DNA of 51,736 nucleotides from Fragilaria crotonensis. Lineage: Eukaryota; Bacillariophyta; Fragilariophyceae; Fragilariales; Fragilariaceae. The stretch is from contig JAKSYS010000450.1 in the NCBI GenBank assembly GCA_022925895.1, positions 1 through 51,736 on the forward strand. The letters are read 5' to 3'. Of the stretch, positions 7,320 through 39,319 are shown piece after piece; the first letter of the stretch is position 1, and each line of letters starts with the position of its first letter. The notes below the pieces were generated by a model. It was not told where the DNA came from. It saw only the letters and a program-made list of their open reading frames with translations, and searched no databases. The translations under genes were made by a program, and so were the position numbers.

Positions 7320-8092
7320 ATGTCACCCTATTTCAGATCGCGAGTTCCAGGAATCCAACATATCGTGTTCGTGGGAATCTCTCCCCACTCAAGCTGTCCC
7401 AATATGCGCTACGCATTCCTCGCCCGGGGTGTGGTTGATTGCGCAGCATAGCCATATCCTGGAGGTCAATAAGCCACCGTGCGCAGGTACCTTCACTCAG
7501 TATGTCGCTTCCCTCTCTGATTGGGAAAAGGAATTGCTACAATATGTGGAACTTGAAGTTGACCCGTTTTCGGTCGCCGATGCTCTCGAACATGGTGTTC
7601 GTGGAGTCAGCGATGGATCCGACTGGCATCAAATTCAGGGTTCATTCGGGTGGACTATGAGCAATGATATCGGTGAACGATGCGCATACGGTATGGGTCC
7701 GGCCCGTAGTGCGTCCCCACACGCTTACAGATCTGAAAGCTACGGTCTCCTCTCGTTATTGTGTTTTTTGCGCAGACTTGCAGAATTCACTGGCAAGCAT
7801 ACTACGTGGCGTGGGGTTCTCGCAACGGATAGCCAGAGCCTTATTGATACCGTCCTCCAGAAGCCACCCGCCAGCACGGCGTCCACCATGTCGAGTCATG
7901 CCGCAGAAGGAACGACGGCCATCCGAAGCACGCCACTCGACCCGTTGACCCCCGAGTGGGATATCATCTCGGGAATTCAAAGTCTCTACAAGAGATGCCC
8001 GACATCACGCTTCAACACGTAAAGGTCATCAAGACCGTGATACTCCATATCATCGTCTCCCGCTCCTCGCCCAGTTGAATGTAGACGCAGAC
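7222..8092 (+). pseudogene. RNase H domain of LINE ORF2, copy A
   Basis: Type I RNase H that degrades template RNA after reverse transcription. Catalytic residues are present: Asp in VSDGS (7612-7614), Glu in RSESYG (7735-7737), Asp in ATDSQS (7828-7830), then KGHQD with His at 8027-8029 and a final Asp in NVDAD (8084-8092). The open frame 7222-8022 covers the first three. A frameshift near 8020 separates the GHQD and NVDAD end, so the active site is not encoded in one frame here, unlike in copy B. Confidence 0.83.
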
Positions 8093-9151
8093 GCTCAAGC
8101 ATCGCGATATCAACGCGACTTCGGATCTTTTCAACCAGAGGTGTTGCTTACAGAATGGTCGGGCGTGCATCTGGAATTTCCAACCGGAACCGTCACTGCT
8201 CACTACGATACAGCTTTACGTTACCAAGCGACGGCGCCTGAATTACAAGAACATATGCGAGAGCGGTACTCATGGACGGCACAAACTATGTCTGTAATAA
8301 ACTGGACTGCACATGGTAAAGCCTTGCAACGTCACATCAATAAGAGAACTCATCTGGTGAAATTGGTTCACGGGTTACTTCCGACCAATGCAAAACTCCA
8401 TCGTGTCGACCCTCGTCGCAAGCGATGCCCAAGTTGCCAAGTCTGCCCGGAGACGTGGAGTCATATCCTTCGGTGTAAGTCGGAGGCCCATACATCTTGG
8501 CGTGCATCGATGGTCCAAGTGGTAGCACGGAAGTGTGACGACCTCAACACAATGCCGCGGTTGAAAACTCTCTTGTTGCAGGCGCTCCGGGAATGGTTTC
8601 TCCACTCAAACGAAGAAGTTCCTTACCAACTCGAAGCCCCGAGCACAGCACCTGCCGCAATTCGCAGACTAGTTTATCAGCAGAACGCAATCGGTTGGGA
8701 ACACGTGTTCCTGGGTCGTTTTTCTAGCAACTGGAGCTCGCTCCAAGATGAATACTATGCGCGACGGGCTCATTCGATCGATACAAAACGACAAACTGGG
8801 CTACGATGGCAGATTGCAATTATCAGTACGTTGTGGAACCAGTGGTTCCTTTTGTGGGCTACCCGAAACCAGTCACTCCACGGCGCAGATTCCAAATCGA
8901 GGAACCAGGCAGAGCGTCGCGAAGTCGATCGCATGTTAGCCGACATCTACGATGCTCGGAACCAGATGGAACCGAGTATCCAACAATTGTTGTGCCGCGA
9001 TATCACCGAGCATTTCACCAAATCAGTGCCTTACAACAAAAATTGGCTGTCAACTTACGGACCACTTTTCAAGCAGAGCATCCATCGAGCAAAAGTTAAG
9101 GCTATCCAGGGAATGAAGTCCATCACATCGTATTTCGGGCCAAAGAAGTAA
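8075..9151 (+). pseudogene. C-terminal part of LINE ORF2, copy A: zinc motif and PIP-like tail
   Basis: This open frame of 358 codons forms the end of ORF2. It has a C-x2-C-x8-H-x3-C motif at 8426-8476 (CPSCQVCPETWSHILRC), an alpha-helical Trp-rich region (QQNAIGWEHVFLGRFS, WNQWFLLWATRNQSLHG) and an invariant end MKSITSYFGPKK just before the stop at 9149-9151. The zinc motif is of the kind found at the C-terminus of many LINE ORF2 proteins. The tail resembles PCNA-interacting peptides and recurs in all five copies. Confidence 0.8.
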
Positions 9152-9220
9152 CACCTTACTCATCACGGGATTGACTACTGGCCGCTTCTGGTTACGGTAC
9201 TGGGAGTGTCAAGTCGTGCG

Positions 9221-9289
9221 GGTCGAGCGTTTTTAATATGAACGCCGCGGCAGTACGTTAAATTAGATCTGGGGTTTTTTTTTGTTTTT
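9221..9289 (+). promoter_or_regulatory. LINE 3' end: hairpin, conserved 16-mer, T-run (copy A)
   Basis: A small hairpin (GCGTT 9227-9231 with AACGC 9241-9245) is followed by CGCGGCAGTACGTTAA (9246-9261), a short spacer and T9-G-T5. The same order occurs at 17134-17193 and 27524-27583 with different stem bases, so base pairing is conserved rather than sequence. I infer that it is the site recognised by the reverse transcriptase for target-primed reverse transcription. Confidence 0.65.
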
Positions 9290-9345
9290 GTCTGCTGTCA
9301 TAATTGAAGGGTCGAAGTCGTTGAGCCGACAAACAAATACCACAC

Positions 9346-10345
9346 ATGCATTATTTTCCTCCTGCTTTTGCCATTACAATGGAGATTGATGAAGAGAACA
9401 ATTTAGGCAGAGATCATGATTGTGATGATGACATGGATATTTTGTTGATCATCGCTCAATGCATCAAGAACAACAACGTTGCGCTGATCCAATGTCTTCG
9501 CCGTCGCCGTCGTAAACAACAGCATTTCCATTGCCAGTGTGCTTGCTGCCTTGCGAATCCTTTTACCTTTAGATCACAGGCATTTACCAGGGCAGCAGAA
9601 AGCCATCTTTTGACATCATGAGGCCTTTTTGCATCCAAAGTAGATTACTATGCAATCTCTGGCAATTTGATGACACCCATTTTTAAAGATCGACAAATCT
9701 TCCAAATGATGTTCAGAGTGTCTAGGAGTTATGTCCAGAGAATGCTTGAGGAAATAATGACCACAAATCATCCTTTCTATGCAAAGTCAATTAATGTAGC
9801 TGGGAAAAAGGGGGGCATCTTTGGAAGCAAAAGTTCTGGTGTCATTAACAACCTTCGCGTATGGAGTCCCGCCTCATACCTTTACTGATTATTTCCAAAT
9901 GTCAGAGGGACTTGTTGCAATGTGCTGCAATGAATTCGCTGCAATAATGAAACAACGTTTTGACAAGGAATCTCTCCATATTCCCAACACCACTGACCTG
10001 AAGAGGATTATTGTACAACACAGCAAGGAGCGTCACCAATTGAATGAAATGTTCAGTCTGTTGGAATGTATGCATTCTGGATGGAAAAAGAATTGCCCAA
10101 AAGCATGCTGGCAAGTATCCTTCAAGGCAGGAAAGGAAAGTGCTGGTGGACCAATAGTTGTGATTGAAGCATTGTGCAACCTTAGTAATTTGTGGTTCTG
10201 GCATGGATTGTTTGGATATGCTGAGTCCCTGAATGATCTGAATATCCTTAATCTCTTGCCATTTTTGGAATCGTTGGTTGATGGAACATTCTCGGAGCTG
10301 GAGAAGAATTGCGGAAAGGATCCAAACGAAGTCAATAATATTTAA
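9346..10345 (+). pseudogene. PIF/Harbinger-type DDE transposase, broken
   Basis: Family match is by motifs. FRVSRSYVQRMLEEI (9710-9760) is the usual N-terminal helix. FAYGVPPHTFTDYFQMSE (about 9850-9905) matches the L-x-YG...D-Y-F segment. ECMHSGWKKNCPKACW (10064-10110) is the C-M-H-x-x-W-K-N-C-P signature. LWFWHGLFGYAESLNDLNIL follows (about 10190-10250), with the second catalytic Asp in NDLN. The first catalytic Asp of D-C-x-H is Glu here. A frameshift lies between 9820 and 9890, and the protein stops at 10345 before the third acidic residue. It is therefore a dead copy. LINE A abuts its 5' side and may have cut into the element. Confidence 0.8.
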
Positions 10346-10373
10346 ATATGATTTTTGTACTTGTTGATGGGAA

Positions 10374-10969
10374 CTACCCCCCGTACTCAAGATTTGTCAA
10401 AGGCATCCAGATGCCTCCGACCGACAAGGAAAAGAGATAACAGCATAGCAGTAGTCCCTCGTAGTCCCACCCATTTTTGTCCTTACCATGCTGATCACTA
10501 CCGCTGCTTGTAGTACGTTCTTCTTCCACCTCCTTTGGAGGATCATTGTTAAGCTCTGCCTTGCTTGCTACCAATTGGTCCTCATCATCTTCAATCTTCT
10601 TCATTGTTGCCAAAGCCAGGTCATACTGGCCACACGTTGCGTAAATGGAGGCCATCTTCATCCATTTCTCATTCTCAACTCATCCTGCTTGGTTGAGGTA
10701 GCGGCCATCAAGAACACCGAGACTAACTCTCTTGTAGCAGACAATTTGTCGGCCACCATTTTCTCCTCTTCTGCATTTCTGGTATTGACCAAACATGTCA
10801 ACAATCCAGGTGCTACAGACAACAGAACTCCTGCATCCTCCAACTTCTTAATTAATTTGGCTTTCTTCATTCCGATTGGCCGTTCCATGTTAATTCCTTG
10901 CACCAGCGGTGCACTATTATTCACCAGCAAGTTGCGGTCATTCTCTTTAAACACAAAACTTGTTGACAA
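10374..10969 (-). pseudogene. Partner ORF of the Harbinger element (Myb/NAM-like C-terminal region), frameshifted
   Basis: Read on the minus strand, convergent with the transposase. RPIGMKKAKLIKKLEDAG (about 10830-10885) resembles the RP-x-G-x-K-x-A-K signature of NAM-associated/Myb-like proteins that accompany plant-type Harbinger transposases. About 50 codons on, a one-base shift near 10665 leads into EKWMKMASIYATCGQYDLA, the A-x-x-Y-x-x-x-G-D/Q helix pair common in that domain. The N-terminal DNA-binding part is not recognisable upstream. Harbinger elements usually need both proteins, so a two-ORF remnant is the simplest reading. Confidence 0.5.
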
Positions 10970-11262
10970 GTGGAAGCGGCATCGTAAAGGAAACGAAATT
11001 TATTCTGAAAGGACGATCTGTAGTATATGTGAAACCTAATAGAATCGAAGATCTGAAACATCATAGATACCATATGAGACAAAGGAATAATTTCCCCGTA
11101 TATACGAAACAACGAATGATTAACAATAAATGTCGAATTTCAGTTTTCTTTCGGATACAGCATAAAATCTCCATACAAGAAGACTGCAATACAATGAACG
11201 AGAAATGGATTCAGAAAAAGATATGTCTGAATCCGAAGTTGTAGAGACGGAATCTGTCTAAA

Positions 11263-11752
11263 CTCTTAAGTGAAACCTCTAAAGTTTTGTCTAATGTCTA
11301 AAGTGTTTTACGGAATCTCTCTAATGTCTTAAGTCTTTAGAGAGAATGAGACTTTAGACAAAACTTTAGAGGTTTCAAGAAATGTTTAGAGATTCTGCAG
11401 ATTTCATCATGACCAGCCACGGACGAGTTTCCACGATTCCAACTTAACCAGGTTTCAGTACAAAATGACCATGGTGCGGTATTCTCTCTAAACATAAATT
11501 TTGTCTCATGGCTTCTACATACAATCAATACTACAAAGAGGTGCCTAGACAGAGATTACCGCACCTTCCACGGTCATTTCTTGCTAACTTGCTCTTAAGT
11601 GAAACCTCTAAAGTTGTGTCTAATGTCTAAAGTGTTCCACGGAATCTCTCTAATGTCTAAAGTCTTTAGAGAGAATGAGACTTTAGACAAAACTTTAGAG
11701 GTTTCAAGAAATGTTTAGAGATTCCGCAGATTCCGTCATGACCATGGACGGG
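11263..11752. repeat. Two direct copies of a hairpin-forming repeat (about 160 bp each)
   Basis: Copy 1 (about 11263-11423) and copy 2 (about 11592-11752) are near-identical direct repeats 329 bp apart. Each contains inverted arms. In copy 1, TGAAACCTCTAAAG plus TTTTGTCTAA (11271-11294) pairs perfectly with 11354-11377. A second, smaller pair (TCTCTCTAA with TTAGAGAGA) sits inside. I see no coding potential. They could be tandem MITEs or a partly duplicated foldback element. Confidence 0.75.
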
Positions 11753-12680
11753 TTTTCCAAGATTTCAATAAGACCAATGCCTGTCGTACTAAGGATTCCC
11801 AACAGTTTCCACGGAAGTTTTAGGTGTACCGTTTGGTCGGATCTCTCTTGTCTCGGAGTATGTCGCTAATTCAGTCGCTCTTGTTATCTCTATATAGAAG
11901 CCTGCGCCTCAGTGCCCTTATGATCATCGGCGACCGGCAAAGATGCAGATGAGGCAAATATAGGCTATAATAGAAGTTGTGAGGAATACACGAAGTACTC
12001 CGATTAGAATAACTAATGGAACTGCCGGCAGTTTAGGTACTGTGATTGTAGCTAGTACAACACAGCACAGTACAGCTGGATGATCCTGACAAATGGGTCC
12101 TGCACTCTCACAAAGGTCTCTCATTTTTATTGCTCAGTGGCAATCGATTGGGGCGGCATGCCTTTCTGTATCCTGACTTATTCAACAACAGTTTGATTGT
12201 TGTCATCACAAACTGCTGTGAAGGAAGAAAAAATACGGCTGAAAATGAATGCCAGTAGTTGGTGGAGTACTCGGAGTACCTCACAAAATTTCTGAATATC
12301 ATCACCAACACAGTAAAGTAAAATAGGGTTGCTTCAGAGAATTTCAATATAACTGCATGGGTACAAGTGCTCGTACCAGGTATACCTGTTTATTGATAAT
12401 ACTTCAATAAATTGCTGGTGCGCAGGCTTAAAAACACACACGCACCATTCCTGATCAGAAAACTGAGGAGGGGCTGAACCATAAATCTGACCACAAATAA
12501 ATTGTAATTCAATTAAAGCTAGTAAGGGTACTGTACTACGTAATTATGCAAGTTGGTAATATGATGATTTACGAACTTGTTTGACACAAATCAGACAATA
12601 TTTCTATGGGATTCAGCTACTTTTCACGTAAATTGCAAATGGGAGATATTTTTGGTTTCTGAAAGTTGTATGGAAATGGG
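11753..12680. other. Stretch without recognisable genes
   Basis: No open frame with recognisable similarity, no long repeat and no RNA gene that I can support. Short GTAC-rich words occur, as in other non-transposon stretches of the window. Confidence 0.5.
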
Positions 12681-12788
12681 CTACGATGCATGCATACCTG
12701 AGGCTTTTAATAAGATTCCTGAACTTTGAAATGGGATGACAAGGAAAATTCTACTATAAACGTCACAACCTCGGATCGGCACCCTTAG

Positions 12789-12845
12789 ATGAAGGGTGAT
12801 TCGGTGAGTGCCGTTGTTGAGTGGAACATCAAAGTTTGGAATTAT
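12789..12845 (-). pseudogene. Short LINE ORF1b remnant
   Basis: On the minus strand, IIPNFDVPLNNGTHRI matches the N-terminal ORF1b motif of copy D (LIPNSNVPINDGTIRI) and copy A (NIPTNDGTHRV). Similarity fades on both sides. This looks like a scrap of a third LINE lineage in opposite orientation. The match is short, so chance cannot be excluded. Confidence 0.4.
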
Positions 12846-12875
12846 AGCTGATGTTTTTCCAATTGATGCTGTCAT

Positions 12876-14372: not shown

Positions 14373-15533
14373 TTGCAGAAGAAAAGTAACGCTATCACTG
14401 AGTTCCTATGGTCAACGCCATTGTCGAGGGCAGAAACTTGGTTGTATTATCATGCCTGTTACCTCCCGTCGATTTGTTATCCATTAACATGTTCTCATTT
14501 GACACACAAACAATTAACGTCAGTTCAAAAGAAAGCAATGTCCATTATTTTCGCACGATGTGGTTATAATCGGAATACAAAGAAAGAAATTATCTTTGGA
14601 CCAGTCGAGTATGGGGGCGCAAACTTCCATCACCTCTACATAAGACAGGGAACCCAACAGGTGACTTACTTCATGCGACATTGGCGTACAATGACTTCAG
14701 TGGGGAAGATGTTCAAATGCGCACTAGCATGGATACAACTTTCGAGCGGAGTCTCATACCCGATTATGGAGCATGCTAATACAAGCTTACCACACTTGGA
14801 AGCAAAATGGTTCACGTCCCTTCGAACATTCTTATCAAGTATTAGGGCAAGGATCATGGATCACATCTTGGAAGCGGGAACATTCACGGCATCAGAAATA
14901 CGACGATTAAATTATTGCAGACTATATCTCCAGGCCGTCACAATTTCGGACATCACAATGATCACAGGAGATGTACTGGATCAGAGTAAACTCGCAGGTT
15001 ATCCTTCACTCCAGAGCAGCAAATCACACTGGATCCCAATAAATCAAGAGCGACCATCGGAGAAGGAATGGACACTTTGGAAGAAGGCAAATTTACTGTG
15101 GAGCGACACTCGGGGTCATCTCAAGATCCCGCTTCGCAAGTGGCTGAAGGATGTCCATCACCAACGTAACTATCACTTCGCGTATCAATATAGAAAGAGT
15201 GTCTGGATCCGAGAGCACGGAGGCGGATATCAAGTCCATCGATTAAGGTCCAGTGGTAGGTTGCAAGACAGACAATGGATACAAGAGCGTGCACAACTGC
15301 CACAGCAATCAGTCCCGGTCGAATTATATAATGATGCAGCGGGATCCTGGAAAATACTCAGCCCAACATTCTCCATTGTTACACCTCATACAATATCACA
15401 GTCGGCAACAGCAACGTTTGATGCATACATCGAGACGCTCGAGTCGTGGGAATTGATTTACTCCGTCATCTCACGTTGGACATCGATCCCTATTCTATTT
15501 GTTTGGAAGCTCATCAACACTTCAGAGCGGTGA
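14373..15533 (+). pseudogene. LINE B ORF2 part 1: RT thumb and connection
   Basis: A 386-codon open frame; the same frame extends upstream to the truncation point at 14259. It parallels copy A 6340-7500: NAITEFLWSTPLSRAETWLY, KKAMSIIFARCGYNRNTKK and RLNYCRLYLQAVTISD. Near 15450 the homologous reading passes into the next frame (AYIETLESWE, then DLLRHLTLDIDPYS), so a single indel separates it from the RNase H part. Confidence 0.8.
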
Positions 15534-17062
15534 GCGATGGATCCGTGTTGTCAAACGGAAACGCATCCTTCGGGTGGATCTTAAGTAATCGGAGAGGAGA
15601 ACGAGTTGCAGAGGGTATGGGACCAGCACGAGGACGGAGAGTACATTCATACCGAGCAGAGGCATGCGGTCTGTTATCTTTTCTACGGTTCCTTATACGG
15701 ATCGCCAACTTTACACAGATGCACGAGACATGGCACGGAATCCTCGCAACGGACAGCCAAAGCGTACTGGATACCTTGTTTGGACAAGATCGCGATGATA
15801 GCAATGAAAATGAGCCTCTAGACCTAGATAACCAATGCGTGGTGTTGGACCCATTATGTCCGGAATGGGATATCTTGATCGAGATTCAGGCGGCACTACG
15901 AGTTTTACCAGGAGTCCGTCTACAATACGTGGAAGGCCATCAAGATCAGAAGAAACCATATCAGTCTCTCGAGCTTCTGGAACAATTGAACGTGGACGCT
16001 GACAGAATCGCGGAAGAATATCACGAGCTTCTCCAACCGCAACGGCCATATGTACTATTATCTCCGCACGCACGAGCGCACTTAGTGTTTGAGGATGGGA
16101 CAGTAACCGCAAGACATGCAGAGTTTATCGAGACCCAGGCAACGGCCGAACCTTTGGTGCAGCATCTCGCAAAGAAACACTCCTGGAGCGATGGAGTTAC
16201 GGAAAATATCAATTGGAAAGCTCACGGGCAGGCACTCAAGCGGAATCGACAGAGACGGTCTCATTTTGTGAAAATGGTCCACGACATTCTCCCAACAACA
16301 AGCTTGCAAAATAAATATGATGGCGGGAAAAGAACATGTCCCCTCTGCCAACACCCGTGTGAAGATAGCGATCATATTCTTCGATGTCAACACCCTTCCC
16401 GAGTCGAGTGGCGTCGCCAGTTTCTCCACGGAATCTTGGAGTTTTGCAATAAAACACACACTTATCCCCCGATACGGATTCTTCTCATCACGACTATGCA
16501 GAGTTGGCTAAGCGGCGAAGATAACCCACGGATCGAAAGAGATCAATATCCAGCAGATATGAGCTCAATCATTCGGCAACAAGCCAAAATAGGATGGCGA
16601 CAGATGCTTCAGGGACGATTCTCCAAGGCGTGGAGTGACATTCAGCAGCGGTACCACGAATTAACGTTCCCGACTCAACAATATACTCCCGACAAATGGC
16701 AAGTGGGTTTAATCCAGAAGATCTGGGAACATAGGCACAAAGTCTGGATTTTGCGAAATGAAGATTTACACGGCAGAGATATCAGGAGTCGACAACAGGC
16801 CGAGCGTAAGGAAATCCAACGACAACTGCATGCCATCTACTCCCAGCGACCGATGATGGACCCACGAGTGCAATCCCTGTTACTTGAAGCACCAGAGGCA
16901 CATGATCGATATCCTGTTCAGGTGACAAAGAACTGGATACGAATGCACGCTACAACATTCTCGGAAAGCGTCAAGCGGGTGAAGACCAGAGCACTACATG
17001 GGGTGAGATCTATTCGTTCGTATTTCAATCCTATCCCAGCGGTAGATGCGGAAGCGACATGA
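15446..17062 (+). pseudogene. LINE B ORF2 part 2: RNase H, zinc motif, PIP-like tail (538 codons open)
   Basis: This is the best preserved ORF2 C-terminal half in the window. All RNase H acidic residues lie in one frame: VSDGS (15536-15538), RAEACG (15659-15661), ATDSQS (15752-15754), EGHQD (His 15938-15940) and NVDAD (15992-16003). The zinc motif CPLCQHPCEDSDHILRC is at 16338-16387 (C-x2-C-x8-H-x3-C). Helical Trp-rich repeats follow (QQAKIGWRQMLQGRFSKAW). The tail is VRSIRSYFNP at 17003-17032, followed by nine further residues. It cannot be made as part of a full ORF2 because the copy is truncated and has a frameshift upstream. Confidence 0.85.
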
Positions 17063-17193: not shown

Positions 17194-17194
17194 A

Positions 17195-18469: not shown

Positions 18470-18471
18470 TC

Positions 18472-19830: not shown

Positions 19831-20685
19831 ATGCACGTTCCGATGGGTAACTGCTGACAGTCAAACCGCAATAAACACGTGGTGCGGGAAACTCGATCAT
19901 CACGAACCAAACTGCGTCAACCCGCAAATCCTGATTATCTCGGTGTAATTTGATCGGAAACTAAGTTCCTTCGTCGGAAAATTACGCCGAAGTGGATCAA
20001 AGGCCACCAAACGGTGCGACACGATATCCATAATGGACATAATTGGGATGTAAGCCGGAAGAATCACGTTGACTCCTTGGCAACATGGTATCGCGAGCAA
20101 TCCAATAAACGACAATCAATTGAGAAAACAGATCACACTCCAGAAGCAAGAGTAACGGTATTGCTTAACGGGGTTCAATTGGTATCTCAGGTCGAGTCCA
20201 GTCTTTGTTTCCATATCAACGGCTATCACTTGCGGTTGCATATCCAATCGCAACATCGGTGTTCGAATGCCACCTGCTGGAATCGAATCGACGTGGAAGC
20301 TCTCGGACGTTTCTATAAACGATTACCACCAGCTGCACAGGTGGCGCAAACGAAATTCATGTTCAATCAATGGCATACGGGCGCAACGAGGATCCGTAAC
20401 GCAAGGGTCAAGGATCCCCAGCTTCGATTCTGTCCGTGCTGCAAGACGACGGACGAGACGACAACGCATGTGCTTCAATGCCGATCGAATTCGGACATGA
20501 AAAAGGTCTCCAAATTTTCAGAAAAACAATGTCTCCGAAGGAACCACACCCAGTGTTTCAAATCCTACGAGATGGCATCACCTCTTGGGTGGAGGGCATT
20601 GAAGTATACGATCCTCCGATTGATCAGATTCCGTCTAAATTCCATGACCGCCTGCGCGCAGCACTACGCGATCAGCAGACGATAG
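19831..20685 (+). pseudogene. LINE C ORF2 part 3: end of RNase H and zinc motif
   Basis: After TADSQTAINTW, a further frame carries KWIKGHQ (His, about 19990-20010) and NHVDSLAT (last Asp, about 20065-20090). Then come the linker and the zinc motif CPCCKTTDETTTHVLQC at about 20430-20480 (C-x2-C-x8-H-x3-C). The open part is 20014-20685. RNase H residues are all present but scattered over three frames. Confidence 0.75.
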
Positions 20686-21164
20686 GATGGGATAACGCTG
20701 TCAAAGGGTACTTGAGCGTTGAGTGGCGTTTCATGGCGGCAGACGCCATGTTCGATTCTTCACCCGCCAAAACTGACAGTGGTTTTTACCGCATCCACAA
20801 CATTCTTAAAGCCGCTCATATTCTCATGCAGACGACATGGAAGGCTCGGAATAAAATGCTACATGACAATCAGGATGCCGTCAACCGACACATTAGGGAA
20901 GCGGAGGCGGAGGAGAGAACTGAAATGCATCGACAATCGAAAAATTTAAGAGCAGGCGATCAGCATTACTGTGAGCAACCATTGGAAAAGATCCTAAGAA
21001 ACAAATCGGCGTCCTCACGACGACGATGGCTTCGCTACATGAAAATGGCCCAGGATAGATCCAGTCGCGACGGGAAGAGACAAACTTTACTGACCAATTT
21101 TTTCAGACCTTCGGTCACGGATACACAACGTTCAGACACACTTGGAATACAGACACCGAAATAA
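20436..21164 (+). pseudogene. LINE C ORF2 part 4: C-terminal domain with canonical PIP-box
   Basis: The homologous frame from about 20540 to the stop at 21162-21164. It aligns with the copy D end: QTIGWDNAVKGYLSVEWR, HYCEQPLEKILRNKSASSRR, then SSRDGKRQTLLTNFFRP. QTLLTNFF (21081-21104) fits Q-x-x-[ILM]-x-x-[FY]-[FY] exactly. About 19 residues follow the motif. Confidence 0.75.
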
Positions 21165-22205: not shown

Positions 22206-22409
22206 ACAGTACGAATTAACGGTCAAAATCTTCTAGTTGAATTTTAACACAGTAATTAGTCTAGTTTCACTGCATACTACATTGTGCGTAGCTACCAAAG
22301 TACAAGTTCTTTCTTTAAGATAGAGTGGATCTACTGTACGTTATACGATACATCATACATTCCGTACGGCGTACAATTGTGCTCCGAGTACTGTTCAACA
22401 TTGGTAGGG

Positions 22410-22424
22410 TTACATTTTGCGACG
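22410..22424 (+). repeat. Target-site duplication, 5' copy (LINE E)
   Basis: TTACATTTTGCGACG, repeated exactly at 27582-27596. Confidence 0.88.
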
Positions 22425-23003
22425 ACGCGGATGAGACTCGAGATCATATCATTCGGTGTTCCAGCATGGAGAGAGACCAACCAATGGCGACGAAAATTCA
22501 TGAGGGCAATAGATCGTTTCCACGAAAAGGAAGACACATTCCCGCTGCTTCGGAGCGTGTGGAGAGAGGCGATGGAGCTATGGTTTGCCCAAGAGACGCA
22601 GGAGGACGTAGAAGTAGCACCATTCTTGTTCCCAGCTGAGGTTCGACAGGTCATTGTACAACAAAATGCAATTGGATGGCGACAACTCTTCAACGGACGG
22701 TTTGCGAAGGCGTGGGCAACAGTGCAAAACGATTATTTGGCAAGAAGGCAAGGTCTAACAAGCGACGAGGAGATTGCGCACCAGCGGAAGGATAAGAAGG
22801 GCAAACAATGGCAAAAGAAGTTCATCATCGCGATCTGGAAGCAGTGGATGGTATTGTGGAAAAGTCGGAACGAACTAGTCCATGGGAAAAATGTAGCTAC
22901 TCAACGGGAAGCGAATCGTCGACAGCCAGCTGGAAGCTGATCTACGGGGTATATACGATCAGTGAGAACACTTGGAACCCGAGTTCCAATCCCTATTGTT
23001 TAG
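22425..23003 (+). pseudogene. LINE E ORF2 C-terminal part, before the LTR insertion
   Basis: Encodes RDHIIRCSS (zinc motif end), then QQNAIGWRQLFNGRFAKAW and WKQWMVLWKSRNELVHGKN, each with close counterparts in copies A and B. A frameshift near 22910-22930 moves the reading into the frame that meets the LTR boundary, and that frame contains a stop near 22960. Confidence 0.75.
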
Positions 23004-23460
23004 TGTCAGTGCATCATTTCCCGCGCTTGTCTCAAGCTACCATTGTCATGCTACAGTACGGTTCATGCTACTATATCCACCCGTACATTGGAAATACTGT
23101 ACCTATTTGGTACTGTCGCATGACTTCACGAACGGACTACGGTAGTCTAAAAGGAGTGGATCTTCCCACTCCGGTCACAACTTCATCTTAGCTTAAACAC
23201 TTACCCTCAACTGCATCTTTGCCGGTCTAGGATCGTAAAGGTGAAGAGGGATCGTTTGCTGCTTTGATACAACACTCCCAACTCTTTCCAACAGACTCGT
23301 CGCCGCGCGTCCGGACACGCTTGTTCTCACTTGTTTCGACTTGTTCTGTCGATCAGCCTCGATCATTGTCACTTGAGCGAGTCTTCCCTCCTGCCTTGCG
23401 TCTAACCCGCTCCCCAGCGAGCGAGCGTGAACGTAAGGCCTTGGAAAGATTGTTCTAACA
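23004..23460 (+). repeat. 5' LTR
   Basis: 457 bp, begins TGTCAGTGCATC and ends GATTGTTCTAACA. Nearly identical to 26832-27288. Confidence 0.92.
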
Positions 23461-23472
23461 GGTTATGAGCCC
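23461..23472 (+). promoter_or_regulatory. Primer-binding site, complementary to the tRNA-Met anticodon arm
   Basis: GGTTATGAGCCC directly follows the 5' LTR. Its reverse complement GGGCTCATAACC is the anticodon stem-loop of tRNA-Met, including the CAT anticodon. Priming from a half-tRNA cut in the anticodon loop is known for copia of Drosophila and related elements. Confidence 0.75.
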
Positions 23473-23634
23473 AAACTCTGCTAGGGTTAAGGATATATAT
23501 CCATAAGCAGAGAACGTGATCCTACGCACCTCTTAACTGACGCACGCCCACACGTCAGGCACAATCGGGTCATCTTTAAGTAACTCAGTGATCCGACTTG
23601 CAGATTCACGAATCTAACATCGATTGCCATTCCT

Positions 23635-24547
23635 ATGTCGGACGCCGGGGAGATCCAGTACCCGAATAACCGTGTGTTGCTCACGGTCGACATTGAGGAT
23701 TGTCCATTGGTAGAGTTCCCTCTGTGAACTATTTGATTTGGCAACTTCCACTCTTGTTTATGATTACCTTGAGGTGCTACAAGATTATGTTACACAAGTT
23801 CTTGAAGATACAACTTGGCTTGACCAGCAATGCAAATTGCGTCTTCGCAACACTGCATCCGGGGTTTTTGACCGCAGGGCCGATGGACGTATCTTTTCTA
23901 TGCGAAAACCAGCGTTGCAGAGGCGGATTGCTCAGACTCTACGGAGCCGCCGTGGGAGTCCTCATCCCATGGACATTCCTCTTTTCATCCGTTTTCTGCT
24001 TCCTGACATTGACCTTCCACCACGCCGATCCACCTTCCCTGTGGCTATTCATAGTGACTACCATGCGGATCTCCGTCATTGCCCCTCTCCCACAACACTC
24101 CAGTTGCCCATTCCTCCTCATGACGTCTTGCACGATTTGGGAAACAGCAAACATGATCCTGGTGCTGTGTTTTATTCCACTACCCCTGTACTGGTTGATT
24201 CCTGCGGCGCTCGCGTTATCCAGACTCAACATGATCTTCCACACGCCACTGCCACTGCACCACCTGATGACACGACGTTTGTGCCGATCGTTCCTGCTCC
24301 AATCTTTGGGGCCCCCTGTTTGTCTGATTGTGGGATTATCGATTTGAATGGCTGTGATATTGCAATGGCGGGCCCTGTTGCACTCAAGGACACAATGGAT
24401 GATGATGTTGGCATTGCATCGTTCATGGGACGCACACTACCTCCGACAATTCAATTTGCCCATCCCCCACCAGCATTAATACCACCAATTTCTTTTTGGC
24501 GTGCTATGAAATGGAGAAGGCGAGTTCTGCATCCGGCGCAACCATAG
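23635..24547 (+). pseudogene. Uncharacterised ORF inside the LTR element
   Basis: The reading probably starts at ATG 23635 (MSDAGEIQYPNNRVLLTVD), is closed by stops near 23726, and continues in the +1 frame as a 269-codon ORF (23738-24547). That part begins STLVYDYLEVLQDYVTQ and has Arg-rich and Pro-rich segments (LRSRRGSPHPMDIPLF). I recognise no Gag, zinc-knuckle or enzyme motif. It may be a divergent Gag, possibly with a frameshift at 23.73 kb, or a captured sequence. A cellular function cannot be inferred. Confidence 0.4.
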
Positions 24548-26817
24548 TGAGCGTGGAATTGACGGGACAGCATGGCTTGTTCATGGATGCGATGCATGTG
24601 ACGAATGATCCAGCACCAGGCTGTATCGTAAGCATCAGACTCGCACCCTCGGACCAGGCACCCCCAGAAAGTATGCCATCCATTGCGCACGATCTGGCCT
24701 TCTTATGAAAGACAGCCCACTCTTCGTTGACCACCTCCAAACGGTGCCCGAAATGGATCCTACCACCACCGCGGCGTCTTCCTACGGGTTCCTGCTTCCT
24801 GGCAATGACAGGGGCGTACGCAGCCGCCTTTCCCTCCCTCGCCTGCTCACCCGGTATCAGCCCATCGATCGCGGTCGGAGTCCTATCAATCTACTGTGAC
24901 CCTTGCTCCACTTTCTATTCCTTGTCCACTTCCTGCAGTGTGGCCAATGGGGAGTGTCTGTTGTCGCTGTAGACGATACCCGCCCTGTGACGATACTGCT
25001 ACTGTATATCTGCCTTGGGACAAGGTACCGATGCAAGCCTCTGTTGGTGGCAAGTACCATACAGCCTACTCGGAACTTGGTACTCCTATCAATTCCACAC
25101 GCCAAGTATTACTTGTCACACATCATGTACGTCGGTGAAAATGACACCTGCTCTACGACGACATTTTGATGGCATTCGTCAGCATGTGGATGTGGACCGC
25201 ATCTGCATGGACCGGCACAATCAGACCATCATTGGGACCACGACGTTGTCCCCACACAGCTCATCTCCCGATTGCCCACTCCATTGGATTCGTAGCCATG
25301 CCTTTCGTCATTCCGACGTTCCACAAGTAACGATGATTGCCCAAAGCATTTGCAATTCAGATGAAATGATTGAATGGTGCCGTGGTTGTGGGTAACGCTT
25401 GACGGGAACACTGTGGCACGCAGACCCGCAGTTATCGGGCTAATTCTGTTGCACGGTGATGCTAGCATGTTTATTGGGCAACAAGGACAAGCAGCCTACG
25501 CGTTGTCATCCATCCCATTGCTAAATTCGGTGATTTTGTCAACAACAGATTGCCAATTGCACCACCCCTCTGAACAGCTGCACCTTTTGCACGAAGCCAC
25601 TGATTGTCGCATCACCAGGCGTTTTGTTCTGTTCCGAACAGTGCAACTCGCCCGCAAGGATGGATTCGATGATGTCCTGGTCCAACATGCCGCGGGAGTT
25701 ACGGTGCTTCTATATTGAACTGGACACATCAACGACGACTTGCTTCAAGCAAGGAATTCCGGAATTGCCAAGGTTGCCTGGCTTCGCTCGACCGAGGATA
25801 GGAAAGCGTGGCCAAATACCCAGCATGTCAAAATCGGCCGGGCACAGCAGGAGTCAAAGACTATGGGTGTATTTGCCAACGCTCTCCTCCGTGGCATGCT
25901 GTCCGTGACGCGTGAGCTCCGCACAACCAAAATCCCACGAGGTAACTGGTATTGAATCCACTCAAACTTCGACACTCGAACGAACGTCCCTCGCACTGCT
26001 ACTAGGAGACACATTCTGTCAAGGACATGCGGATCCCATCATATCCCCGAAGGGGCCGTACCCTCCTTACACCACATTTGAGATGCTTACAGTGCAACAA
26101 CTGGTGCATCAACTGAGGGTGGCACGGCATCTGCGGTCCTCGACGTTCGGGCATGACTCTTTGTTGCAATGGCCTTCCCCTTCATTCCCACCTGCCACTA
26201 ACCGACAGTTGCTGCCATCACGTTAAATGCACACTTCCTTTGCTTTCCCAATGGGGGAGTGTGTCCGTGCATGTTTGCTGTGCCTTTTGCTTCTTGTTCC
26301 AACAGTCAAACTTGTTTGGTGCGACTTTGCCCCAACTGGTAGCACCAGTGCTGGTACGGACGTTCATGGCCCCTCCCCCCTGCAGGGGATTTCTCTCATT
26401 ATGATGCCAATAGCAAAGCGGAAATGACTGCGCATCACAGCACCCGCACTGCTGCGATAGCAAGCAACTTCACCCTCAGGGCCGTGGACCACACAGATTC
26501 TGTGGCAGCAGAGGAGACATTGCACGAGTGTGCATTGCCCTGTCAGAGTCACTGCTCATCATCATCATGGATTCATTGATACTCCCTTTTGCTTCCCAGT
26601 GTCCAAGCTGTGCTCAGAAGGGATTAGGAACATTGATTGCAGACTCTCCTTACCCGAAACCAAAAGCGTGTTTTCTGCAGATATCACTATGCTGTGTTGA
26701 CCTTGCCGCCTTCAGAGTAACTTCCGTGCCCCATGGACTCCTCCATTCTCCTACGTCAATTTCATTTGCCTGATGCACTCCTATTGCTCATTGATCAGTC
26801 TCTTTCTTTGATCCTGT
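24548..26817 (+). other. LTR-element interior without assignable genes
   Basis: Several medium open stretches on both strands (for example 25015-25395 and 25374-25718, plus strand) show no conserved motif and no consistent frame. Two internal sequences resemble the junction of polypurine tract and 3' LTR (near 24944 and 26249), described as a finding. No reverse transcriptase or integrase signature was seen. Confidence 0.5.
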
Positions 26818-26819
26818 CA

Positions 26820-26831
26820 ATGGGGGGAGTG
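26820..26831 (+). promoter_or_regulatory. Polypurine tract
   Basis: ATGGGGGGAGTG immediately precedes the 3' LTR and is the expected plus-strand primer site. Confidence 0.75.
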
Positions 26832-27288
26832 TGTCAGTGCATCATTTCCCGCGCTTGTCTCAAGCTACCATTGTCATGCTACAGTACGGTTCATGCTACT
26901 ATATCCACCCGTACATTGGAAATACTGTACCTATTTGGTACTGTCGCATGACTTCACGAACGGACTACGGTAGTCTAAAAGGAGTGGATCTTCCCACTCC
27001 GGTCACAACTTCATCTTAGCTTAAACACTTACCCTCAACTGCATCTTTGCCGGTCTAGGATCGTAAAGGTGAAGAGGGATCGTTTGCTCCTTTGATACAA
27101 CACTCCCAACTCTTTCCAACAGACTCGTCGCCGCGCGTCCGGACACGCTTGTTCTCACTTGTTTCGACTTGTTCTGTCGATCAGCCTCGATCATTGTCAC
27201 TTGAGCGAGTCTTCCCTCCTGCCTTGCGTCTAACCCGCTCCCCAGCGAGCGAGCGTGAACGTAAGGCCTTGGAAAGATTGTTCTAACA
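26832..27288 (+). repeat. 3' LTR
   Basis: 457 bp, same ends as the 5' LTR, followed by the duplicated TTTAG. Confidence 0.92.
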
Positions 27289-27293
27289 TTTAG

Positions 27294-27450
27294 AGACGAA
27301 CAAGAGCATCTCAGGAAGTATCATCTGAGCACAATGAGGAATTGGATATCGACGAATGCACCAATCTTCCAACAAAGTTTAAGGCAAGCCAAACGAAGAG
27401 CAATTGCAGGAGTTAGATCAATAAGGTCCTATTTTGCACCTGTTCGGTGA
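27294..27450 (+). pseudogene. LINE E ORF2 C-terminus, after the LTR insertion
   Basis: Encodes the last 50 or so residues of ORF2 up to the stop at 27448-27450, ending VRSIRSYFAPVR. VRSIRSYF (27412-27435) is the PIP-like tail shared with copies A and B. Confidence 0.75.
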
Positions 27451-33683: not shown

Positions 33684-33711
33684 CATCAGAAGGCCGCTTT
33701 TGTTAACTATG
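33684..33711 (+). repeat. Left terminal inverted repeat of the CACTA-like element
   Basis: Starts CATCAGAAGGCCGCTTTTGT. Matches 49803-49830 inverted, 26 of 28 bases. Confidence 0.85.
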
Positions 33712-34188
33712 TCAAAAAATGGTTACTTTTTGGTCGTAAGTCATTAATATATTGCCTAATGTTAACATATAATAATCAAAAGTAAGTATAGTCTTATGAT
33801 AACTGAATATTATAATTTATGTTTCTACAATGTTTGTTTCTTTCCATTGACGGTAAATAATAAGCAGTGAACATCTTCAATTTCTGATGAACATCGTTTT
33901 TTTTGTCATGGTAACTTAGACCATACTTCAAACAGATATAGTAACATATCTCAAGGCGTCAAACCATACATAACATATTTCAATAAAATATATTGATATT
34001 CAAACATTTCTTTTTACCATTCCATTATGTACGACTTCGTCATGCTGATTGTTGGTATGTCGTTTGACAAGGGAATTATATTCTCACCACCATATCTGGC
34101 AGTTCTTAAAATATTACATTCGTCTGATCAAAGAATTGTGCTCGTATTGCAACACTCTTCACTCGTTGTCTATCTTTAATCTACTACT

Positions 34189-35829
34189 ATGTCGACATCA
34201 CTTTCTGAGGATTGTGCTGTTTGTGGGAAAAGTTTCAAGAGGCTTGGTGCGCACCTTGTGCGTAGTTTGGCATGTGGTTCTTATTACATGCCACGCCGCG
34301 CTGACACAGATGAGTGTCGTGAAAGTGAAGGCGCTGATCATGGCACCCGTCCGAATTTGAGATCCTCTTCGTATAGCACTCTCTTTCGTGCACAACGTGC
34401 AACTGTAAGAGGAGAGGCGGATGACGAGCCGCCAATCATCAATGTGAATGGAGTTGACGACGAAGACTTTTTTGTGATGGATGACGATGATGGTTTTCCG
34501 AATGACAATGTTGATGAGGAGGATGTCCCCAGTGATGCAAGTGAAGGCGAGGAAGGTCCGGATGCCGGTGTTTTGGACTTGTATCTGAAACTTTTCCAGC
34601 TGCAAGATAACCCGCTAGGTCTTGCGCGTTTTTCTCGGGAAGAGGAGGTCTTAATTGAGTTATTGCAGCTCTAAAGGAGCTCCATTGTCCACTCAAAGCG
34701 TTTGAGATCATACTCAAGTGGGCTGCAAAATCAAATGGTAGTGGTCATACTTTCCGCGAGGTTGTCAGCCCAGTCGCAGCAAGGTAATCGCTAACTTGTA
34801 CGAAAGGTACAACATGAACGGATTGATCCCGAAGGAGAAGAAATTGTACCTGCCTTACACCCAGAGAACAGTGTCCATGATTTACTTTGATGCCCGCGAA
34901 GTGTTTGCGTCACTTCTCTCATGTCCCACACTTAATCAAGACGAAAATTATTTTTTGACGACGCAAAGGATCCATTCATCGCACACAAGCATCGTCTGAT
35001 GTTGGCGACATCCACACTGGTCGTTGCTACAGAAAGACATACGAGGCTCTAATAAAGTTTGGCGTTGATATGCTGTTACCTTGCGTCATAGCAATGGATA
35101 AGACATATCGATATGGCAGGACGGCTCCAAATGGAGCCCATAACAATCTCACACGGTCTATTGAATCACACTATGCGCCGCCTCCCAAGTGCCATGCGCA
35201 TCCTTGGATACATCAATCACAGCACCGCACCTCCCAACTAGCGCAGATGTTGATTCCGATTTCAATTCTCCAGAAGATCTGGCGGATGATGTTGTGCGAA
35301 TCAAGAACCCAATTCATCCGCCCGCCAACGGTGATCTTAGTTGGGCAACGTTACTCCTCAATGAAACACATGCAGATTCAGTTTATACTCGAAGAGTCTG
35401 GATTTTTGATTCTACAGAACAGTGGCTTCAAATGGAATTTGCATTACAACAACACCATTCACAAAGTGGTGTTCCACCCTATGTACCTTTCATCGTCGGC
35501 GATACAGAGGGTCACGACCGTCTCTGTGGTCATTACAGCAAGATTCATGGAGGTCAAACAGCTTTGAATCTGTGAATGCCCCAGTTACTTGACGGGGTAT
35601 TCGAAGTCAAAGTTCCCCACCGTCTCCAAAAAAGTTGATTCCTTAGTGCAGAGGGGCTTGACTGCTGAGCTCCAATCAATGTCTCAGAACTATCTCAAGA
35701 ACGGGTTTGAAGGCGTCCGATTTGGCATGCACAATAAGCGCGGAATTTTTGGTGCGTGCCCAGGCGAAATGCTGCACTTGATCTCGCTTGGTTGGTTTAA
35801 GTACTGCCTCCAGGCTTTCTCGGCTCAGG
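34189..35829 (+). pseudogene. CACTA/Plavaka-like transposase, frameshifted and truncated
   Basis: The first frame (34189-34674) begins with a zinc-binding-like segment CAVCGKSFKRLGAHLVRS...C and an acidic linker. Reading then shifts near 34665, 34785 and 35105. Diagnostic parts are AMDKTY (about 35088, putative first acidic residue), AGRLQMEPITISHGLLNHTM, VPFIVGDTEGHDRLCGHY (about 35480-35533, second acidic residue) and MHNKRGIFGACPGEMLHLIS then GWFKYCLQAF (about 35727-35820). These segments are typical of Plavaka-type transposases. At about 35830 similarity stops abruptly in a GC-rich sequence, so the C-terminal part is lost. Confidence 0.75.
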
Positions 35830-36206
35830 CCGGTCCACCCAAGAACCCACCGACCAGCCCGCACTCCCCCGGCGCACTCGCCTTCTTCGCACGTCGGAAC
35901 CGTCGCCGGAACGCACGCCTTTCTTCCGGTACGACAGCCATGGACAACAGCGACATAACCGACGAGGGAGTCGGAAGACTCTCTCTTGTCCCACGCCTGG
36001 AGGGGAGGCGATTCCGCCCCCCGTCCACGATTGCCTGCGACCCCAAAACACGGGGCGACTGCCCTAGATTCCGAACGGACATCGCAGTCGGCATCGTCCG
36101 GTTCCCCGCGGCACCCTTCTCTTCGACAACGTCGAATCTACCCTTCCCGCGACCGCCAACCCCCCGTTGACTGGATGACATTGTTCGGCCTTCTCCTGCT
36201 GCCTGG
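35830..36206. other. GC-rich foreign-looking segment inside the CACTA element
   Basis: The base composition jumps to GC-rich immediately after the transposase match ends, and one frame stays open on each strand (35589-36170 plus, 35825-36214 minus). Neither translation resembles anything known to me. The segment continues beyond the small nested element at 37545. Capture of host DNA by the CACTA element is one explanation, deletion followed by filler DNA another. Confidence 0.4.
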
Positions 36207-36208
36207 CA

Positions 36209-37542
36209 CATCACAAGGTGGTTTTTGGTGACTTTTTAAAAATAAATTGCATTCAATATATATTGTGAGTGGACGGGGACTATTCACCAAATAAAATTGT
36301 CAACAACATTTAGTTTGATTATTCATCGTTAATATTCATATTACATTTTAAAAGTTTAACATTTGTCATTTGCTTTGTTGATTTATATCACCATGTGGAT
36401 TGTAATTACAATGTTAAAGTTAAATACAATGACAATTATAAAGTCAAAACAGGCTTAAACTTCAAGTACATGCACATTCATTTTTAATACATCACATGTT
36501 GGTTTATTTATTCCAGCATGTGGATTGTGCGACCATTGTTTAAATTATGTGCTACGACAATTAAAATTCAAAACACGCCTAAAACTCTGAGTATATTCAT
36601 GCTCTGATCCATTCAAGCTTCGAACCAAATCGTGGCTCCTCCTTTTCTCCCTCATCCAAAATCCACAATGCTGCACCCCAAACAATTCAACACTTTTTGA
36701 CTCAACCCTGATGGCGCCTGACTTGAGTCAATCCTCGTTGCCTGGCTGCATTTGCATTGTAACGACAGTGACAATGTTGTCATAAACCGAACAACGACAC
36801 GGCGATCCTCGAATGTTGGTGCTTTTGGCATTCGAGGATTACGTTGTCGTCATTTTCTTGATCAGTCTTGTCATTGCTGTTGCGTTGTGCTACACGTCCA
36901 CTGAGTACATTTCTTATTTGAAACCAGTCCGGGAGAATTTGCACTTTGAATTCCTGTAGAGATGTACAGTGGTCCTCCTACAAGCACAATTTCTGGCGGT
37001 TTTTTTCTATTTCAAACCAGATGGAGCTGGAATAGTAAATCTTTGAATTCCAGCCATTGTCAGTACCTTGTTAACCTTTTTTGTTATAAATGAATTTTAA
37101 TAGTGATATGAAAACACCAAATTCATCTCTTGAAAAAACGGTTGTTACTGCAGAAATAAATTTATGGTTTTGTTGACTCCAGTAGAAACAAATTATGGAA
37201 TCCACCATTTGTTGATTATAAATTAATGGGATTCACCCTTTTGTTGACTCCAGCAGAAATATAATTACGGGATCCAACAATTTGTTGACTCAAGCAGAAA
37301 TAACTGTATGGAACCCACTGATTTGTTGACTCCTAAAAATATACATTTGTCATAGTTTGATAAATCATCAATTCAATCACCAACTCATCAAATACTTTGA
37401 TTTAGTATATACATTTAAATCTCAGTAAAAATTATTTATGCGTAGATATCACTTTTTAATGTTGAAAGGGGCCATAATTTTAACCATAAACAGTCATTAT
37501 TGACTACAACTATATCAACTCACTTTTTACCACCTTGTGATG
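36209..37542. mobile_element. Non-autonomous CACTA-like element (1.33 kb) nested in the larger one
   Basis: Inverted ends CATCACAAGGTGGT (36209-36222) and ACCACCTTGTGATG (37529-37542), flanked by CA on both sides (36207-36208, 37543-37544). The ends share CATCA-x-AAGG and the 2-bp duplication with the host CACTA element. The interior is AT-rich and has an 11-bp hairpin (ATCCTCGAATG 36805-36815 with 36829-36839). Four or so degenerate repeats of a unit of about 55-60 bp containing TTTGTTGACTCCAGCAGAAA lie at about 37140-37340. It has no ORF of note and is likely mobilised in trans. Confidence 0.8.
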
Positions 37543-37544
37543 CA

Positions 37545-37930
37545 GGTAAGGTCCGCGCGACGCCACTTCGTTCGACAAGAATGGGATGGTGATCACGCAC
37601 CACGACGAGGAGACAACCCAACACCAGACCAATGGCAACAGTCGCGAGCGCGTCCTCCTCCCCGTACTCTTCGTCCACAAAAACGACAATCAACCCGCTG
37701 CCTGGCGAGGACTGTGCAGTTGTTGCAGAAGAAACGCACGCGGCAAGAAAGGATCGACAACAACGCAAGACCACTGACAACAATTGCGAGCGCGTCCTCC
37801 TCCCCGTACTCTTCGTCCACAAAAACGACAATCAACCCGCTGCCTGGCGAGGACTGTGCAGTTGTTGCAGAAGAAACGCGCGGCAAGAAGGATCAACAAC
37901 AACGCAATGATCGGGCGAGGCTTCATTGAA
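37545..37930. repeat. GC-rich segment with a 142-bp tandem duplication
   Basis: The unit beginning GCGAGCGCGTCCTCCTCCCC at 37644 is repeated at 37786 almost exactly, through about 37906. Because 142 is not a multiple of three, the two copies are read in different frames of any translation. The open frames here are therefore unlikely to be a gene. Confidence 0.65.
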
Positions 37931-38600
37931 TGTTCTGATTCAATGGAGGTAATGGTGCAATTCTGGTGTCAGAAATTGCATACCAGGCGCATACGACATG
38001 GTACACACAACTCTAGGGACTCCACACCTGGGACTTTATTGCAAGCCCTCTAAATAAATTCGATTTTTATCTAACAAATAGACGCTATATTTATTTATGA
38101 TACGGATATGTGGATTCGATATTAAGTCAATAGTACTTCAATGCAAATACACCAAAACCATTGAACAACACAGAACACCAATATTTCAATAAGTGCGTTG
38201 ACTTTATTATGCATGTATAATATATTACTTTCCCAGGACCGTAGTATGCACTGTAACAGCGCTACAATACTACACTGTACATTGTGTAAAATTACATTTA
38301 GGAATCTTGTATCAAAAGTCATCATGTCATGTATCATGCTGCCTAAGTACAACAAGTCACATGTATAGAATTTTTTTGGCTATGTATAGCATTTATAAAA
38401 AGTATATGAATGGAATGTATTTTTAGTCGCCAATAACAAGATTTATTAGCGTGATTGAAACGCAGGACACTGCAACTTATACCATTACGTGTACAACGAT
38501 GTACACAGTACCTAGTATGATGCATGACACCGAGCGAGTACAGTCCATGTGTACCATATATGTATTTGAAAAGCAATACATATCCATATAAGATCATAGA
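37931..38600. other. CACTA-element interior without genes
   Basis: AT-rich DNA with GTAC-rich words near 38450-38560, no open frame of note. It belongs to the CACTA element up to the LINE D target site. Confidence 0.45.
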
Positions 38601-38623
38601 GTAAAAAACGGTGGATTATGTAT
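38601..38623 (+). repeat. Target-site duplication, left copy (LINE D)
   Basis: 23 bp starting GTAAAAAACGGTGG, exactly repeated at 47562-47584. Confidence 0.9.
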
Positions 38624-38652
38624 ATGTAACCTAATTATAAGGTTGTCACCGT

Positions 38653-38674
38653 GTACTGGCCGGTAGGCCAGTAC
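38653..38674 (-). promoter_or_regulatory. Hairpin in the 3' UTR of LINE D
   Basis: GTACTGGCC (38653-38661) and GGCCAGTAC (38666-38674) form a 9-bp stem with a 4-nt loop, shortly before the 3' end. It is a candidate recognition structure for reverse transcription. Confidence 0.55.
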
Positions 38675-38758
38675 CGTGTACCCACACCCGGCGGCGAACC
38701 GCGGGATGATTTAACTAAACTATGAACTGTACATAAACCTCATACAATCATGCGTCAA

Positions 38759-39319
38759 TCATGACAACTTACTTGGAAAGAAAGATGTCAGTAGAGATTG
38801 TCGGGATCCGTCCCGCGAATATGCCTCCGTAGATTGCTTCACTATTCGTAGCCATCGTCGACGATTCGAAGCGGATCCAGACAGTAGTTTTTCAAGCGAG
38901 CCGGAACAGTAGTGCTGGTCGTGATGGGGAAGAAGATGTGGCTTACTGTGGTAATATTTGATCTCCGCAATATCACTGTCACGAATTGCCCGGACGTTGT
39001 CATCGTCCTTGTTGTGGAGAGCGGAATTCCTCGAAAGCCAAACGCTTCTGGTAAATACGTGTGTCGCGTGTATGATGGATCTCATGCGAAAGTCTCCTCT
39101 AGCGGTATCCAATTTCGTCGGTTGGTATAAATCATGAGCAGCAGCCTCGCGCCATGAGGTACTGAAGAAACCTCGAAGAGCGTTACCCCAAATACCGGCT
39201 TGATCGCGAATTGCATCTTGGAGAGGATTGAAACACAGGGTCATATTCCGTAAGGCGAGGGGCAAATGGGACAGAGTCTTCGTGTTCAAGCCAGTGGAGG
39301 AGACCTGCTGCAATGACAT
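38759..39319 (-). pseudogene. LINE D ORF2 C-terminal part with canonical PIP-box
   Basis: A 186-codon frame, related to copy C throughout (HATHVFTRSVWLSRNSALHN, QHYCSGSLEKLLSGSASNRR). It ends SRDGSRQSLLTSFFPSKLS and a stop. QSLLTSFF at 38777-38800 fits the PCNA-interacting consensus exactly, four residues from the end. Confidence 0.75.

Follow-up and report, generated by a model that had tools for sequence, protein, structure and literature searches.

In the diatom Fragilaria crotonensis, long interspersed nuclear elements (LINEs) of two related families end their second open reading frame (ORF2) in a short peptide with a pair of aromatic residues, and this terminal peptide is quite likely a PCNA-interacting protein (PIP) box. 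Five such peptides lie in a stretch of 51,736 nucleotides (GenBank assembly GCA_022925895.1, contig JAKSYS010000450.1; here called the window), where LINE copies A, B and E belong to family I and copies C and D to family II. As far as sequence can tell, docking of the ORF2 protein (ORF2p) on PCNA is likely, and these LINEs probably copy themselves while docked on it. A preliminary description of the window had listed the five peptides and had read copies C and D as fits to the PIP-box consensus. A six-frame scan recovers all five, and the consensus form QxxhxxAA (h, hydrophobic; A, aromatic) is general in family II, where it stands at one locked column in 68 of 74 aligned rows; it is found there in 0 of 75 rows of family I.

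All conservation data come from one genome, identified as that of a diatom by 19 matches to the silicon transporter family (best E 4.0e-193). Protein searches of this genome gave at least 118 matches to the ORF2 end of copy A; for the ORF2 end of copy C the number was at least 152. Tails were read at 160 loci, chosen as having alignments that mostly reach the tail, and 28 extra loci, mostly with alignments stopping short of the tail, were taken to offset this selection. The column alignments hold 145 of the 160 loci together with four window copies, which gives 75 rows for family I and 74 for family II; the other 15 loci, with a short terminal open stretch or no stop, were left out.

At the locked column, 64/75 rows of family I and 70/74 of family II show the core xxx[ILVM]xx[FWY][FWY]. 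With a narrower core, ...[ILM]..[FY][FYW], the locked offset is occupied in 64/75 and 68/74 rows and the next-best offset in 2/75 and 15/74. The strict box of family II, Q..[ILM]..[FY][FY], is concentrated in the tails, with 68 occurrences in 2,960 residues there and 2 in the 14,860 residues of the remaining domain. The occurrence of the box is beyond chance. When sequences are clustered at 50% identity, the core is present in at least one member of 16 of 17 clusters in family I and 16 of 18 in family II, or 32 of 35 overall. The flanks of the box are mostly basic (net charge above zero in 70/72 rows of family I and 59/74 of family II), and basic flanks have been reported to raise the affinity of PIP boxes (PMC6881253).

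Profile comparison shows that the two families have homologous C-terminal domains (hhalign probability 99.7%, E 3.6e-27, 237 columns, 14% identity), and in this alignment the family I box falls on the family II box. In a 96-row tree the families form separate, fully supported groups. Since the domains are homologous, the boxes aligned and the families fully separated, the box was probably present in their common ancestor.

Further upstream, the reverse transcriptase (RT) profile RVT_1 matches the C153 ORF (1568 aa) with 31.2 bits in the genome search, over the cut-off, and with 27.0 bits (cut-off 29.6) in a second scan; for L194 the score is 23.4 bits, below the cut-off of 29.6. RNase H profiles of Pfam give 21.2 bits (PF00075, cut-off 25.8) for L194 and 16.7 bits (RVT_3, cut-off 21.6) for copy B, with no match for L193. 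The RNase H motif order SDG, TDS, GHQD, [DE]AD follows RVT_1 in three of three ORFs, while a single combined pattern gave no match. After the RNase H-like domain come a zinc-knuckle-like CPxC..H..C and the C-terminal domain. In the family I ORF P0002 the core is matched once, at the C-terminus, and nowhere between the endonuclease (EN) open frame and the RT, and the EN frame of copy A has no match. A family II frame of 481 aa upstream of the RT (L194:3528-4970, minus strand) contains two Gln-less core matches, LKSMRSYY and SAMIRRYW. Many RVT_1 matches of the genome are concentrated on contig C880, and we presume that these may be organelle group II introns. A comparison of single window proteins with a viral contig collection found no relative.

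Selection on the box, and its exceptions

Changes were counted on trees built without the box, with 71 rows for family I and 73 for family II. Position 4 is I, L, M or V in every row (71/71 and 73/73), position 7 is aromatic in 71/71 and 71/73, and position 8 in 63/71 and 70/73; position 1 is Gln in 70 of 73 family II rows. The preliminary description had proposed the conservation of positions 1, 4, 7 and 8 as a test, and the residue classes are indeed held at 4, 7 and 8 in both families, at about 14% identity, and at 1 in family II. In that family, position 4 has undergone 15 changes on the tree with 0 exits from I/L/M/V, and positions 1, 7 and 8 have undergone 3, 8 and 6 changes (family median 17), with 3, 2 and 3 exits from their classes; positions 2, 3 and 6 have 19, 12 and 21 changes. 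For family I the counts at positions 4, 7 and 8 are 3, 5 and 4 (median 15), with 0, 0 and 3 class exits.

The trees are long, with 25.5 and 27.1 changes per column, and the key positions lie in the slow tail of rates. In family I the columns directly after the box rank with the fastest of the alignment, and in family II several of them do. The ratio of nonsynonymous to synonymous differences (pN/pS), taken from 15 (family I) and 16 (family II) disjoint close pairs and thus based on few counted changes, is 0.137 (bootstrap 0-0.290) and 0.083 (0.013-0.230) in the box, and 0.80 and 0.59 in the next four codons. Of adjacent aromatic column pairs, family I keeps 0 at 90% or more and family II keeps 1, namely that of the box itself. 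Judged from these substitutions, the box is under purifying selection, and the pattern of changes fits a PIP box.

Scanning the coding strand in any frame, which may also count off-site matches, gave the core with an aromatic pair at 147 of the 160 loci, Leu at position 8 at 8 and neither at 5; the 28 hard loci divide into 13, 3 and 12 on the same scheme, and at three of these 12 (L169, L173 and L177) the fetched sequence ends at the contig end. Loci with broken frames can still show the box, and L113, counted among the 147, has a stop inside it. In the main sample, 19 family I loci have open frames of at least 1000 aa: 16 carry the aromatic pair (four as Tyr-Trp), two carry Leu at position 8, and in one the frame shifts immediately ahead of the tail. 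Such frames are found at 16 family II loci: 14 with QxxhxxAA, L145 with Val at position 7, and L162, described below. Many intact relatives without the aromatic pair were the case that the preliminary description had set against its own reading; relatives of this kind do exist, at two of the 19 long-frame family I loci, but they are a minority.

A small family I lineage (L022, L023 and L168) has the tail VRPITEWL, with no aromatic residue at position 8, and in L022 and L023 none of the searched boxes is found elsewhere in the fetched frame. At L190 (G000:C397:10980-11700) the box region is duplicated in tandem, the terminal QSLITSFFSPV recurring just beyond the stop as QSRITSFFSPV.

In family II, L162 and L161 (open frames of 1975 and 1978 aa) have an additional canonical box downstream of the first. 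Relatives of both were gathered by two further searches (L203 and L205-L209; L210-L213). The motif QQRMT[SAE]F[FY]PGRPPD is in frame in six of seven loci of the L162 lineage, the seventh, L204, being frame-broken there. Among four distinct sequences of this lineage, identity is 83% in the second box, 100% in the PGRPPD that follows it, 46% in the original box and 21.5% in the linker, 30-35 residues long, that precedes the second box. Three of these four have lost the last aromatic residue of the original box (QRSITQYI, QRQVTQYM and QQLVTRYM); that of L207, QQTLPQYF, still fits. Second boxes of the L161 lineage read QMSILRYF (L210-L212) or, with one extra residue, QTSILVRYF (L213). Because it is kept past a poorly conserved linker, the second box behaves like a portable linear motif, which is hard to fit to the packing of a terminal helix.

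Host proteins, proposed mechanism and competing explanations

One host PCNA gene was found (PF02747, E 1.8e-48). Its exon 2 aligns with residues 114-258 of human PCNA (1.7e-54). The presumed docking region is conserved: the connector loop LMDIDNEQLGIPDTPY is the counterpart of LMDLDVEQLGIPEQEY, and the C-terminal KYYLAPKI is identical. Host proteins also have PIP-like motifs. FEN1 contains QARMDSFF, and a POLD3-like protein has the C-terminal end KQGSLMGFFAKK, which includes QGSLMGFFAKK. The host RNase H2B (PF09468, 27.5 bits, cut-off 25.2; L200:1264-2535, minus strand, G000:C870) ends in STKGMKSLSSFFGAKKK, also given as GMKSLSSFFGAKKK, and the end of LINE copy A, AIQGMKSITSYFGPKK (also given as GMKSITSYFGPKK), is nearly the same, with GMKS..S.FG.KK in common. 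Capture of the host tail by the LINE as DNA is not supported: synonymous codons differ and no homology of the tail DNA is seen by eye, so that convergence is the likelier explanation. The preliminary description had likened the Gln-less form of family I to the box of RNase H2B, and this likeness is borne out by the host tail and by human RNase H2A, whose Gln-less box 265-LRKITSYF-272 has been seen on PCNA by cryo-EM (PMC11731006). With such similar tails in RNase H2, the family I box has close precedents for PCNA binding without Gln.

If the terminal peptide is a PIP box, it would dock in the hydrophobic pocket of the PCNA ring while PCNA is on the target DNA. Docking at the nicked target during target-primed reverse transcription would hold RT and the RNase H-like domain in place, and could keep them there through first-strand synthesis, removal of the template RNA and priming of the second strand. 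As the family I box resembles the tail of host RNase H2B, a LINE that encodes RNase H would itself tether that activity to PCNA, and an element so equipped, with an RNase H2-like tether, could do without host RNase H2. A wider proposal can be built on this: that these LINEs bring along a complete equivalent of RNase H2 (own RNase H plus PCNA tether) for clamp-run RNA removal and second-strand synthesis without the host enzyme, and that PCNA docking is a general requirement of LINE retrotransposition, met across clades by unrelated motifs that can replace one another, so that a lineage may gain or lose boxes. We regard this wider proposal as possible, though doubtful.

Several observations weigh against a PIP box. 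The evidence is from a single genome, the Gln at position 1 is absent from 71 of 71 family I rows, and the host RNase H2A has no such box near its end. Leu at position 8 has arisen in two minor family I lineages, in one of which the loci L025 and L027 have open frames of 1076 and 1197 aa. Constraint extends beyond the key residues, since some of the x positions are slow too: position 5 of family II is nearly always Thr (4 changes), and positions 2, 3 and 5 of family I have 5, 7 and 9 changes at a median of 15. Within each family the box keeps a fixed spacing from a conserved Trp, and in an AlphaFold2 model of four window sequences, which is of low confidence, a helix (residues 200-235) runs into the box; with a mean pLDDT of 69, and 54 over the last ten residues, the model was used as mild contrary evidence only.

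The PIP, REV1-binding (RIR) and MLH1-binding (MIP) motifs overlap. A PIP-like motif could thus serve another partner, either the 9-1-1 clamp or proteins that bind these overlapping motifs, and the missing Gln of family I would agree with this. The explanation is nevertheless unlikely, given the textbook QxxhxxAA of family II and the likeness of family I to RNase H2 tails that bind PCNA, in the host and in human.

An explanation by fold is quite unlikely. Here a terminal helix, with the box as its end, would pack against the C-terminal domain and stabilise its fold, and the likeness to PIP boxes would be accidental. The fixed distance from the Trp, the modelled helix and the slow x positions are what one would expect from it. 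Against it, the model is weak in just this region, the second box of the L162 lineage lies 30-35 residues further on beyond its poorly conserved linker, the residues of family II follow the PIP pattern at positions 4, 7 and 8, and neither family keeps another adjacent pair of aromatic columns at 90% or more. That the box has no function and is merely inherited by recent, similar copies, as near-identical copies and boxes at broken-frame loci might suggest, is already disfavoured and very improbable in view of the long trees with slow key positions beside some of the fastest columns, the pN/pS of 0.08-0.14 in the box against 0.6-0.8 after it, and a core kept in 32 of 35 clusters.

Copies in the window

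The features of the five copies are collected in the table below. The residues that separate the box from the stop number 4 in copy A, 11 in B, 19 in C, 5 in D and 4 in E in the six-frame scan. When the C-terminal tails were searched against the window, they matched the five box places and one small fragment (22939-23004) that is part of copy E.

Terminal boxes and ORF2 parts of LINE copies A to E in the window
Feature	Position	Strand	Evidence
PIP-box-like MKSITSYF, copy A, family I	9113..9136	+	six-frame scan; same locked column as 64/75 family I rows
PIP-box-like VRSIRSYF, copy B, family I	17003..17026	+	six-frame scan
Canonical PIP-box peptide QTLLTNFF, copy C, family II	21081..21104	+	six-frame scan; family II QxxhxxAA in 68/74 rows
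Canonical PIP-box peptide QSLLTSFF, copy D, family II	38777..38800	-	six-frame scan
PIP-box-like VRSIRSYF, copy E, family I, broken ORF2	27412..27435	+	six-frame scan; family I tail match 27283-27447
Copy A, 3' part of ORF2: end of RNase H-like domain (LNVDADAQA), zinc-knuckle-like CPSC..H..C, C-terminal domain, box	8075..9151	+	matches residues 1192-1568 of family I ORF P0002
Copy B, 3' part of ORF2: RNase H-like domain, zinc knuckle, C-terminal domain, box	15446..17062	+	RVT_3 E 0.0072, below cut-off
Copy C, C-terminal part of ORF2	20436..21164	+	
Copy D, C-terminal part of ORF2, open stretch (174 residues before box, to stop)	38759..39322	-	family II match 39214-38777
Copy E, C-terminal region of ORF2, left part, frame-shifted	22352..22998	+	tblastn with P0002 and P0003
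Insert of 4,285 bp flanked by long terminal repeats (LTRs), splitting copy E	23004..27288	+ (nominal)	self-BLAST; TTTAG repeats 22999-23003 and 27289-27293

The preliminary description had spoken of five ORF2 copies that end in the motif. The peptides are all present, but copy D is on the minus strand, where the plus-strand frame at the same place is unrelated sequence, and copy E is not an intact ORF2. Its family I sequence runs over 22352-22998 and then again from 27295, split by the LTR-flanked insert, and the frame before its box is open for only 49 residues. The LTRs of the insert are at least 455 bp long and 99.78% identical by self-BLAST; being near-identical, they suggest a recent insertion of an LTR element into copy E. 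The insert sits slightly more than 100 bp upstream of the copy E box. In copy A, the ORF2 is distributed over several frames.

Comparison with known systems

The boxes of host POLD3/p66 and FEN1 resemble that of family II, though these are cellular replication proteins. In the same way, the boxes of RNase H2, which in RNASEH2B lies at the C-terminus, have the Gln-less form xxx[IL]xx[FY]F, like family I, and MKSITSYF of copy A has ITSYF in common with RNASEH2A, but the motif is carried by a different protein. R2 non-LTR elements use target-primed reverse transcription, as is proposed here for the diatom LINEs. R2 is, however, said to be without a PIP box (PMC10830420).

PIP boxes are already known in mobile elements: pogo, Tigger, Lemi1, putatively Ac/Ds, and LINE-1 (PMC5371812). 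The eukaryotic transposases among these, and the transposases of insertion sequences (IS) with their beta-clamp motifs, are likewise mobile-element proteins with clamp-binding peptides, but they belong to DNA transposons, and the relevance of the eukaryotic transposase boxes is described as unclear in the same source. A literature search on titles and the beginnings of abstracts, which covered few subscription papers, found no description of a terminal PIP box on a LINE ORF2.

One of the closest known cases is human L1, whose ORF2p also uses PCNA and for which PCNA binding has been reported as required for retrotransposition (PMC10830420). The preliminary description had placed the human box between endonuclease and RT. 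A site there, in the NTE (residues 407-415), has indeed been proposed, but it is disputed: prediction and mutants have been used to place the contact in the wrist instead, at a 'PUB' motif (PMC7617806). Human L1 is also reported to have no RNase H domain; elements without one are said to depend on host RNase H2, for which PCNA has been suggested as an anchor (PMC6068448).

These elements bear on the question of whether LINEs need PCNA, and why, for which even the human site is debated between the NTE helix and the wrist motif. Because the terminal peptide can be mutated without touching the enzyme, the diatom elements would make this need directly testable. The box in two deeply separated families, the second box and the likeness to host RNase H2B suggest selection for clamp docking in RNase H-bearing LINEs outside the animal L1 clade. 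PIP boxes as such are not new to mobile elements; the place of this one, at the extreme C-terminus of ORF2, differs from both of the internal contacts reported for human L1, the NTE helix and the wrist.

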